Shown here piece by piece: positions 30,847 to 34,205 of a stretch of 64,000 nucleotides of DNA. The notes below the pieces were generated by a model, which was given only the letters and a program-made list of their open reading frames with translations, was not told the origin of the DNA and searched no databases. The position numbers and the translations under genes were made by a program. The first letter of the stretch is position 1. Every line of letters begins with the position of its first letter. Location: positions 124,001-188,000 of the forward strand of contig NZ_JABUFE010000004.1 in the NCBI RefSeq assembly GCF_013315265.1, given 5' to 3'. Origin of the DNA: Parasulfitobacter algicola (GTDB lineage: Bacteria > Pseudomonadota > Alphaproteobacteria > Rhodobacterales > Rhodobacteraceae).

Positions 30847-33800
30847 CTAACCCAGCTCGGCCAGCCGTTCTAGCGCGGCCTTGACCTTGGTCGCCTCGCC
30901 CTCACGTGCGGCCAGGTTTTCGCGGGCCTCGGCCACCACATCCTCGGGCGCGCTGGCCACGAATTTGGGGTTGTTTACCCGGCCTTTCAGCCCGCCGATT
31001 TCCTTTTCCAGCTTACCCAGGCTTTTTTCCAGCCGCGCCTTTTCCTCGCCCACGTCGATGATATCGGCCAGCGGCAGCGCAAAGGTGCCGCCCTCAACCG
31101 CTAGGGTCACGCAACCCTTAGGCAACGTGTCCACTTGCGCCAGGCTTTCAATCCGCGCCAGCCGCTTGATCAGCGCCTCATTGCGCTCCCAAGCCCCCCG
31201 ACCGGTCGCGTCAAGCTCGGTCATCAGCATCGGGATACGCAGACCCACAGGCACGTGCATTTCGCCGCGGGCAGACCGGATCGCCTCGATCAGGCTGATC
31301 ACCCAGTTCATCTCGTGATCGGCTTTTTCATCAACAATATCAGAGGCTTGATAGGCAGGCCAATCCGCATGAACTAGCATCTTGTCGCGCTTGCCCCACA
31401 GCTCTTCGGTGATGAATGGCATAATCGGATGCAGCAGGATCAGGCACTGGTCCAGCACCCAGCCCATAACCTTTTGCGTTTCCTCGCGCTTGGCCGCGTC
31501 ATCGCCAGACAGTAGGGGTTTTGAGAACTCAACATACCAGTCGCAGACCTTGCCCCAAACAAAGGCGTAAAGCGTATTGGCGGCATCGTTAAAGCGGAAG
31601 GCCGTCAGCGCCGCGTCGACCTCTTCCCGGACGCGGGCGGTTTCGCCGATGATCCAGCGGTTCAGCGTTTCCTGCGCGTCGGGCAGGCTGTCGTGTTTGC
31701 CAAGTGCGTCGTTCATCTCGGCAAAGCGGAAGGCGTTCCACAGTTTGGTGCCAAAGTTGCGATAGCCCGCGATGCGCTGCGTCGACAGCTTCAGATCGCG
31801 GCCCATAGCGGCCATCGCCGTCAGCGTAAAGCGCACGGCATCGGCGCCATATTCGTCAATCAATTCAAGGGGATCGAGCACATTGCCCAGCGATTTCGAC
31901 ATCTTCTTGCCCTTCTCATCGCGGACAAGAGCGTGGACATAGACGGTGTCGAAGGGCTTTTGACCCACCACCGCATATTGCATCATCATCATCCGCGCGA
32001 CCCAGAAAAAGATGATGTCAAAGCCGGTCACCAACACGCTGGTGGGGAAGTATTTTTTCAGCTCAGGTGTGTCTTCGGGCCACCCCAGAGTGCCAATGGG
32101 CCAGAGCCCGGACGAGAACCACGTGTCGAGGACATCTTGATCTCTACGAAGACTAATTGTAATTGTTTGCTCTTCTGTTTCTTTATCATTTTTAACATTA
32201 AATCGCCACTTACGTGACTGCTCTAGTCGTTGAACTGGGTACAAATTTTCAAGGTTGGTACCCTCCATCATCTCACGAAACTGGGCATAGTCATCATCTG
32301 TAATGGGCCAAGTTGGCTCAGGTTCTGTCAATAATTCTTCCACAATAATTTCAGCATGTGGAAAAAGATTTTGATAATAAAACAGTGCGTCAGATCTAAG
32401 GCTAGGAAAATCTTTGTCACAAAAAAACTTAGAACCTGTCTGCGAATATCTACCATTCTCATTTTTTGAGTAATCTGGCCCGTACCAAACCGGAATCTGA
32501 TGCCCCCACCAAAGCTGGCGGCTGATCGTCCAGGGCTCGATATTTTCCAGCCAGTTGAAATAAACCTTCTTATGCTGCTCGGGCAGGATCTCGGTTTCGC
32601 CATTGCGCACGGCATCAATCGCGGGCCTTACGATTTTGGCGGTATCGACAAACCATTGATCGGTCAGCATCGGCTCGATCACGACCTTGGACCGGTCGCC
32701 AAAGGGCTGCATGATTTTCTTGTTTTCGACGTATGGCACCATCCGAGGTCCCGGCTCGGGGGCCGGGACTGCGCCCGCGTCATCATCCGTGCTGTCCCGG
32801 ACTTGATCCGGGACCTCTACCATCACCGCCAACCCCTCGGCTGTGATATCGGCCACAACGCGTTTGCGGGCATCGAAGCGGTCCAGCCCGCGGTATTCGT
32901 CGGGCACCAGGTTCATCGCGGCGACCATAGCCTCGTCCCAGTGTAGTTCGCCATTGGCGATTTTCTGAGCCTTTTCAGCTTCTTCCGCATAGGGGGCGCC
33001 GTCAGCGCGCATGTGACCTTTGGTGTCCATCAGCGCATACATCGGGATGTTGCCGCGCTTGGCGACGGCGTAGTCGTTAAAGTCATGCGCCCCGGTGATC
33101 TTGACCGCGCCAGAACCGAAATCGGGATCAGGATATTCATCGGTGATGATCGGGATCAGGCGGCGATGTTCCTTGGGGCCCACCGGAATTTCGCAAAGTT
33201 TTCCGACAATTGGCGCATAGCGTTCGTCGTCGGGGTGCACCGCAACAGCCCCATCCCCCAGCATGGTTTCAGGCCGTGTGGTGGCGATACTGATATAATC
33301 GCGCTGTTCTTCCAGCGTGATATTCCCATCCTCGTCCCGCTCGACATAGGTATAGGTTTCGCCGCCCGCCAGCGGGTACTTGAAGTGCCACATGTGGCCG
33401 TCGACTTCGATATTTTCGACCTCAAGATCACTGATCGCCGTTTCGAACTTGGGGTCCCAGTTGACCAGCCGCTTGCCGCGATAGATCAGGCCTTTGTTAT
33501 ACATATCGACAAAGACTTTGATGACGGCGTCGTGAAAGTTGCCCTCTTCGCCCGCGGGGGCGCCTTCGGCGCCGGACATCGTAAAGGCGTTGCGCGACCA
33601 GTCGCAGCTGGCGCCAAGGCGTTTGAGCTGATCAATGATCGTGCCGCCGGATTTTTGCTTTTGCTGCCAGACGAGGTCGGTGAATTCCTCACGGCTCATG
33701 TCCGTGCGGCGGCGGTTGGTTTTGGCCAGTTCGCGTTCGACGACCATTTGCGTGGCTATACCTGCGTGGTCCTGGCCCGGCTGCCACAGGGTGTCAAAGC

Positions 33801-34017
33801 CGCGCATCCGGTGCCAGCGAACCAGGATATCCTGCAGGGTGTTGTTGAAGGCGTGGCCCATGTGCAGGCTGCCCGTGACATTCGGCGGCGGGATCATGAT
33901 GCAGAAGGTTTCATCTCGGCTGGCATTGGCCCCGGCTTTGAAACACCCGGCCTCTTCCCAGGCTTTGTAAAGGCGCGCCTCGGCTTCAGTTGCGTTGAAT
34001 GTCTTTTCCATCGGCAT
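30847..34017 (-). CDS. valS: Valine-tRNA ligase with two unusual internal segments
   Basis: About 1056 residues from the ATG at 34017 ([20 protein letters not shown]); an in-frame extension to 34149 is unsupported. Class I motifs are present: HMGH in [14 protein letters not shown] in KKMSKSLGN, the editing domain with [10 protein letters not shown], and a C-terminal coiled coil ([19 protein letters not shown]). The enzyme charges tRNA-Val in the cytoplasm. Two oddities stand out. About residues 400-430 are encoded by paired palindromes that look like an inserted repeat. About residues 513-628 (32130-32480) are encoded by AT-rich DNA inside an otherwise very GC-rich gene. Both stay in frame and the catalytic motifs are intact, so the gene is probably functional. 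Its composition differs from all neighbours. Confidence 0.96.
32130..32480 (-). other. AT-rich patch inside valS
   Basis: Sample lines counted by hand give 19, 27, 19 and 22 G+C per 60 bases (32161, 32281, 32341 and 32401), against 35 at 33001 and 44 at 30901 in the same gene. The patch encodes a segment starting [17 protein letters not shown] and ending near [18 protein letters not shown], just before the conserved [13 protein letters not shown]. It may be an insertion or a retained stretch of an older allele. Confidence 0.75.
32748..32814. repeat. Pair of GTCCCGG palindromes inserted in valS
   Basis: Two perfect eight-base-pair hairpins sit 24 bases apart: GTCCCGGC-TCGGGG-GCCGGGAC at 32748-32769 and GTCCCGGA-CTTGA-TCCGGGAC at 32794-32814. 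The second matches a palindrome I know as a frequent intergenic repeat in alphaproteobacterial genomes. Here both are translated in frame, giving a Pro/Asp/Gly-rich stretch ([18 protein letters not shown] and following). Confidence 0.75.
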
Positions 34018-34205
34018 ATGGGTCTGTCCCGTCATCTGGTTTGACGGACCATCTAGCGAATGAAAGGGCAAAGGGAAAGGGGGCGCGTCTGTCGTACCGT
34101 CTATCTTGTCTAAACCAGCAAGCGCGCCGACAGAACCAATCGCTGCCACTGGACAGCGCGTTCAGGAAGACTAATGTCGCGATGAACAGCAAACAAAGGT
34201 GTATC

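Follow-up and report, generated by a model that had tools for sequence, protein, structure and literature searches.

A dispersed palindromic repeat in the reading frame of valS of Parasulfitobacter algicola and apparent recurrent capture of palindromes in the same loop of related valyl-tRNA synthetases

Introduction

The valS gene of Parasulfitobacter algicola, analyzed here within a window of 64,000 nucleotides, raises the question of how two hairpins built on the heptamer GTCCCGG came to stand in the coding sequence of an essential tRNA ligase. The original prediction, made from the letters of this stretch, placed both hairpins within the valS reading frame at 32748–32814, likened them to a common alphaproteobacterial intergenic palindrome and drew a parallel to Rickettsia. 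The placement was confirmed: both hairpins are in frame within the valS ORF and both have perfect arms of 8 bp. As described in the available text of two sources, the Rickettsia palindromic elements (RPEs) are repeats found between genes as well as in frame within protein genes, each encoding a conserved peptide (PMC2229807, PMC10969869), and their size is given there as 105–146 bp (PMC2229807) or about 150 bp (PMC2229807, PMC10969869). For CGTC-tagged alphaproteobacterial REPs, the accessible portion of the source describes stems of 8–9 bp, loops of 4–5 nt and pairs in opposite orientation (Di Nocera et al., 2013; PMC3733652), apparently without a dedicated transposase; some of these REPs are located inside ORFs, among them ORFs that encode tRNA synthetases in X. 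oryzae, E. litoralis and S. alaskensis, and the intragenic copies fall into one functional category and occupy differing sites, except in recB of two Xanthomonas (PMC3733652). REPINs, in the excerpt available, are inverted doublets of short palindromes dispersed in genomes with RAYT transposases (PMC3116915), and the part of PMC12306157 at hand contains nothing on intragenic copies. Since RPEs and intragenic REPs have been described (PMC2229807, PMC10969869, PMC3733652), one palindrome read in frame within valS adds a new member to an already known type of event. In the open-access literature searched, no report was found of recurrent capture of several palindrome families in a ValS loop with a near-constant frame.

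Results

The valS gene occupies 30847–34149 on the minus strand of the window, as an ORF of 1100 codons counted from a GTG at 34149; in the alignment of relatives the conserved columns begin at residue 45, which points to a probable true start around codon 45–47 (MPMEKTF). The product is valyl-tRNA synthetase (ValS), with an equivalog model above its curated cut-off: the ORF product scored 1195.5 bits with NCBIfam NF004349 (valine--tRNA ligase; cut-off 704) and 960.9 bits with TIGR00422 (cut-off 612.1), and it contains the Pfam domains tRNA-synt_1, Anticodon_1 and Val_tRNA-synt_C. The closest named relatives, among the best 80 of 591, are roseobacters (Cognatishimia, 74% in the best segment; Roseovarius, 72%), from which we assign the window to the family Rhodobacteraceae, and the nearest solved relative is the ValS of T. 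thermophilus (1gax).

Both hairpins are located in a variable loop of ValS (32737–32820, minus strand; residues 444–471, 28 letters, net charge −5), which is flanked by the conserved ITAEGLAVM and VPYVENKK. Hairpin 1 (32794–32814, minus strand; GTCCCGGATCAAGTCCGGGAC, or GTCCCGGACTTGATCCGGGAC when listed by rising window coordinate) has arms of 8 bp around a loop of 5 nt, is preceded by GAG (E445), is read as VPDQVRD (446–452) and is an exact member of a dispersed palindrome, here termed type A. Hairpin 2 (32748–32769, minus strand; GTCCCGGCCCCCGAGCCGGGAC, on the plus strand GTCCCGGCTCGGGGGCCGGGAC) combines the type-A stem of 8 bp, followed by CTC, with a loop of 6 nt and is read as VPAPEPGP (461–468). 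The two are united by an outer inverted repeat at 32745–32817 (GAGGTCCCGG...CCGGGACCTC), the 13-nt arms of which are 92% complementary. By itself, the heptamer GTCCCGG shows no enrichment in the window (5 occurrences against 5.66 expected), but four of the five are concentrated in 67 bases, and no Rfam family was detected above threshold anywhere in the window. A standard REPIN-like pair was considered for the two hairpins and dropped: the GAG/CTC ends of the window pair face outward, whereas those of the genomic pairs seen (e.g., L004) face inward, and the apical loop of hairpin 2, CCCCCGAG, was found with this stem once in the genome, namely at the valS site. Hairpin 2 thus shares its stem with hairpin 1 and has an apical loop absent from the rest of the genome; we regard it as a partner of hairpin 1 that either diverged or arose locally.

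In an AlphaFold2 model based on 50 sequences (mean pLDDT 74.9), residues 449–466 have a pLDDT below 50 and no predicted secondary structure, with strands on either side (443–446 and 469–472), which is consistent with the disordered-looking insert that had been predicted. Alignment to 1gax places the segment between residues 324 and 349 of T. thermophilus ValS, the upstream alignment anchor being weak (2.3 bits), and we take this site to be the return of the editing domain to the catalytic core of class I synthetases.

A gapped-pattern search of the genome of the window organism (G000) returned ten palindromes with this stem, two of them being the valS pair. With at most one mismatch, the 21-mer GTCCCGGATCARGYCCGGGAC occurs in 10 copies in G000, the valS one included, and in 60 copies in the sole other genome of the genus compared (G001, the genus mate); it was present in 12 of 20 chosen genomes, and a reversed control gave 0 hits in all 20. 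By this genome search, which had been proposed with the original prediction, the palindrome is dispersed, and the suggested likeness to an intergenic palindrome holds for hairpin 1, an exact member of a multi-copy, mainly extragenic and in this respect REP-like repeat, but not for hairpin 2, which is single-copy and has no exact counterpart.

The coding context of the copies was assessed by a codon-usage score on either side of each copy, trained on the window genes; in a leave-one-out analysis of these genes, 211 of 215 coding positions scored above 0 and 127 of 215 passed 0.25. The valS copy scored 0.26, narrowly passing the initial cut of 0.25, and the 68 others examined (9 of 9 in G000 and 59 of 60 in G001, the copy left out lying at a contig end) reached at most −0.06; lowering the cut to 0 gave the same outcome for these 68. 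By codon usage, none of the non-valS type-A copies is inside a gene (0 of 9 in G000 and 0 of 59 in G001), and within the genus we find the element, as judged from this score, to be intragenic in valS only, gene-end overlaps being possible (e.g., L327 and L361). A looser ORF test identified 8 of 69 loci with an open frame of at least 80 codons across the element, at scores of 0.03–0.21, and these we take to be spurious frames or gene-end overlaps. Three loci in G001 (L322, L328, and L338) appeared coding on both sides and were rejected, the element standing past the stop codon of the gene, within a few codons on its 3' side. A position just past stop codons is common for REPs. Copy number of the type-A element differs six-fold between these two genomes of one genus. 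No match to Y1_Tnp (PF01797, RAYT), which is present in 5 of the 20 genomes, was obtained in G000 or G001, and a RAYT was dropped as mobilizer within the genus, there being no PF01797 match although G001 has 60 copies.

The ValS of G001 is 86% identical overall to that of the window and, in accordance with what a near relative had been expected to show, has no palindrome in the corresponding segment. The segment in G001 is two residues shorter between anchors (63 versus 65), and its loop has diverged too far for the insertion site to be compared; since it is just two residues shorter and offers no clean empty site, loss by decay in G001 might also explain the difference. We infer that the palindrome was inserted into valS and not lost from G001, and that a repeat has here become protein is suggested by its place in a frame that stays open within an essential gene.

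For a broader view, 230 ValS loci were collected: 30 loci (own gene and genus mate included) from a search in which 345 of 394 genomes were above threshold, 80 named ones (the best 80 of 591) and 120 further regions. A loop was obtained from all 230, and removal of identical loop DNA left 218 distinct loops, which represent the best-matching ValS found and not a random sample. The loop proved hypervariable, extending from 5 to 56 residues after ITAEGLAVM (to a 17-letter downstream anchor). Conservation of the segment in distant ValS with different DNA, the finding that would have spoken against a repeat origin, was thus not seen within the family; beyond the family, ValS was compared via the T. 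thermophilus alignment.

Hairpins with arms of at least 8 were present in 21 of the 218 loops, as compared to 37 of 9296 windows of equal size taken from other parts of these valS genes. The density was 2.03 per kb in the loop and 0.12 per kb outside it, a 17-fold ratio. Across 100 codon shuffles of the loops, 2.04 loops on average and never more than 7 contained a hairpin of this arm length. For arms of at least 7, the counts were 31 of 218 loops versus 230 of 9296 windows, with a codon-shuffle mean of 6.73 and a maximum of 14, and the chance expectation of hairpin-bearing loops is accordingly about 2 or about 7, respectively. In a position profile of the 218 genes, hairpins with arms of at least 8 peak in the two 50-residue bins covering 400–499, which contain 51 of 105, some of them in the conserved flank. 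Six loops with arms of at least 7 (L097, L100, L102, L161, L213, and L249) were judged ordinary and excluded from the family counts given below.

The remaining palindromes were assigned by sequence to four families: family A, GTCCCGGATCARGYCCGGGAC-like, with 10 loops; family B, with ATCCTCCGGCTTGACCGGAGGAT and/or ATCCCCGATCAAGTCGGGGAT, with 4 loops; family C, palindromes with GGTGGG arms, with 8 loops; and family D, GCCGGGC...GCCCGGC, with 3 loops. Together these comprise 24 loops, L177 bearing both A and B, and L261, which bears a fifth, unassigned kind of palindrome, is counted only where any palindrome is considered. The loop of L055 (DVPNQAQD) is probably a decayed type-A insertion in which the stem is gone and the frame intact; it was kept outside the family counts. 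On a FastTree phylogeny of 218 ValS rows (491 columns, loop removed), which counts changes without telling gain from loss, the numbers of changes per number of loops were 10/10 for A, 3/4 for B, 8/8 for C, 3/3 for D and 23/25 for any palindrome, and a quick IQ-TREE phylogeny of 63 rows gave identical change counts for families A–D. The nearest neighbor lacks a palindrome for 20 of 26 loci (the 25 loops and L055). Because palindrome bearers are so rare, gain seems the simpler reading of these changes, and unrelated palindromes of several kinds seem to have been captured in one ValS loop of these relatives on more than 20 separate occasions. In family B, L068 and L078 are sisters with a common insertion, and in L068 the palindromes are decayed with the frame intact. 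The loop of L111 holds two copies of the family B partner hairpin (SSSGSTGGS and SSSGLTGGS), which looks like a duplication within the gene.

The reading frame of the captured palindromes is nearly constant. The forward type-A hairpin is read in one frame in all 10 loops (VPDQVRD, APGQARG and similar), despite all three of its forward frames being free of stops; all 4 family B loops agree in the frame of their second hairpin, and all 9 recognized family C hairpins, which come from 7 of the 8 loops, likewise share a single frame. Family D is read as RAEARP in all three loops, with the second D hairpin of L098 in a different frame. In L239, an A hairpin in reverse orientation is translated as PGLDPGP. 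The net charge of the loop is negative in 209 of 218 cases, with a mean of −3.2, and the used type-A frame has a charge of −2, versus +3 and 0 for the other forward frames. Hydropathy as the sole cause of the frame was rejected: values of −1.49 for RSRIKSG and −1.46 for EVPDQVRD do not discriminate. Net charge fits the choice of frame better than hydropathy, and from this pattern we infer selection on the peptide, mainly towards an acidic, unstructured segment. Marine proteomes may be acidic in general, which could contribute to the acidity of the loop.

In-frame type-A copies were also observed outside valS. In one genome (G081), 4 of 23 examined copies (of 26 in total) are in frame within genes, all reading EVP[DG]Q[VA]RD: in valS, in ileS (L377; 445.7 bits at a cut-off of 621.4, the fragment being ended by the locus boundary), in a pyridine-nucleotide-disulphide (FAD) oxidoreductase (L390; under the cut-offs of the models listed) and near the C-terminal part of bchB (L289; 600.5 bits at a cut-off of 490.35). 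L395 was rejected as a fifth such copy: it scored 0.26, yet is located between the stop of an ORF and a likely downstream start. Judged by these predicted genes, capture extends beyond ValS, and ValS is the recurrent case across genera. Because G081 has in-frame copies in other genes, tolerance combined with a frame filter is favored over a mechanism acting on ValS only.

Donor repeats were sought in the bearers' own genomes. Families C and D are dispersed in the genomes of their bearers. Each of the 7 bearer genomes searched for family C (all but that of L067) has it at 1–49 places, counting the valS copies, frequently in close pairs; it was found in neither G000 nor G001, and control hits were 0. 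The one family C place in G278 cannot be the valS hairpin, the stem of which misfits the pattern. With at most two mismatches, family D gave 49, 67, and 9 hits in G044, G399, and G130, where a palindromic copy counts once per strand; the controls gave 2, 0, and 3 hits, and G000 and G001 each had a single pattern hit. For family B, the partner hairpin is present in multiple copies in G395 and G397, has only the two valS places in G396 and gave no match at all in G055; a near-exact copy of the second hairpin outside valS exists in G397 only, with none in the other three of the four hosts. Type A, at no more than one mismatch, was found in G218 and G327 as the valS copy only. Since outside copies are missing for type A in G218 and G327 and in most B hosts, the donor repeat is no longer recognizable for some loops, and for this part of the loops it is presumably diverged or lost. 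In G364, G369, G044, and G399, palindromes of the form GGTGGGT...ACCCACC and GCCGGGCTGAAGCCCGGC are abundant and often paired about 30–60 bases apart.

Discussion

We consider it likely that a dispersed, REP-like palindrome was copied into a tolerant, acidic and unstructured loop of ValS and was retained there. A small element of the REP kind would have been copied into the part of valS that encodes the loop where the editing domain ends and the chain re-enters the catalytic core, and its retention would be due to this loop accepting almost any hydrophilic, acidic and unstructured sequence. Insertion would be largely indifferent to frame; selection at the level of the protein would discard insertions that yield a stop or a basic or hydrophobic peptide, and a surviving palindrome would decay by point mutation while its frame stays open, as the sister loci L078 and L068 suggest. 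The original reading of an in-frame repeat in valS is thus supported: the genome search, the ValS of relatives and the structure model agree.

An active landing site, i.e., a DNA, RNA or replication context of the valS region that attracts palindromes beyond what tolerance would explain, is in our judgment unlikely. It would be in line with the convergence of four unrelated families on a single loop of a single gene and with the valS copy being the sole intragenic one among the 69 examined in the own genus; however, the position inside the loop varies among lineages, a disordered acidic loop that tolerates insertions would show the same pattern, three other genes of G081 captured type A too, and G001 has 60 copies with none in valS. 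Retention of the hairpins for a role in RNA or DNA, for instance in slowing ribosomes on their way from the editing domain to the catalytic core, seems very improbable: several lineages have perfect stems and the loop would, from the 1gax alignment, be near a domain boundary, but 187 of 218 loops are without any hairpin with arms of at least 7, the 91-nt RNA of the window segment folds no better than its dinucleotide shuffles (z −0.89), and the frame of L068 is intact though its palindromes, as compared to those of L078, are decayed. Chance hairpins arising from GC-rich Pro/Ala/Glu linker codons without any repeat are scarcely credible, for despite PAPEPGP-type hairpins at a regular spacing of 42 and 82 bases in two genomes, like protein repeats, and despite 6 of the 31 loops with arms of at least 7 appearing ordinary in our judgment, the 21 loops observed stand against 2.04 by codon shuffle, and the 21-mer copies elsewhere in the genome are non-coding with reversed controls at 0. 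A chance origin is contradicted for hairpin 1 and may apply to hairpin 2.

Copying of a REP-like palindrome into the ValS loop resembles several known systems in part. As for RPEs, an alphaproteobacterial palindrome stands in frame in a conserved protein gene, probably by insertion and not by loss in G001, and to this extent the proposed parallel to Rickettsia stands; it does not extend to the element itself, since the type-A unit of about 21–24 bp and the pair of at most 73 bp, with GC-rich stems, are shorter than the RPEs of 105–146 bp in the available text of PMC2229807, and the host is not a member of the Rickettsiales. A further difference from RPEs, as described in that text, is that in the ValS survey unrelated families on many branches share one loop of one enzyme. 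With its stem of 8 and loop of 5, hairpin 1 falls within the size range given for CGTC-tagged REPs in the accessible portion of PMC3733652, and hairpin 2 (8 and 6) falls outside it; hairpin 1 differs, however, in being flanked by GAG and AGC, in a stem that begins with GT instead of AT and in having no unpaired CGTC tag. By contrast, the type B palindromes of L078 fit well, with CGTC outside on both sides, stems of 9 and 8 and loops of 5. The scattered intragenic sites reported in the same portion of PMC3733652 contrast with one ValS loop hit on more than 20 branches. Like the palindromes of REPINs, as outlined in the excerpt of PMC3116915, those of type A are short, dispersed and arranged as inverted doublets, but no RAYT match was obtained in G000 or G001 and the GAG/CTC ends of the window pair point outward.

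The suggestion that an instance in an essential tRNA ligase would be a clear case of a repeat becoming protein is borne out with regard to the in-frame repeat, and has to be modified in that the case is not isolated: the same loop bears unrelated palindromes in many lineages. Tentatively, and as a possibility rather than an expectation, the ValS loop could be viewed as a long-lived capture site with a filter for acidity and frame, in which palindromes act as portable linker peptides (EVPDQVRD and others) on more than 20 branches of one family; in the stronger form, palindromes would prefer inserting at this loop beyond surviving there. A similar mechanism of adding protein sequence in other prokaryotes is called "conceivable" in the available part of a review on MITEs (PMC10969869), and small repeats as a source of protein sequence outside Rickettsia, along with the filters acting on them, are so far represented by scattered cases. 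Four families in the loop of an essential enzyme would amount to replicated natural experiments on which frames survive, how fast a palindrome decays and how the enzyme responds. Moreover, repeat-derived segments in conserved housekeeping genes can mislead alignments.

A second length-variable block was noted in the same gene at 32155–32472 of the window (ValS residues ~560–665), where the alignments of relatives often break near residue 560; inside it, residues 608–617 and 627–643 have a pLDDT below 50 in the model.
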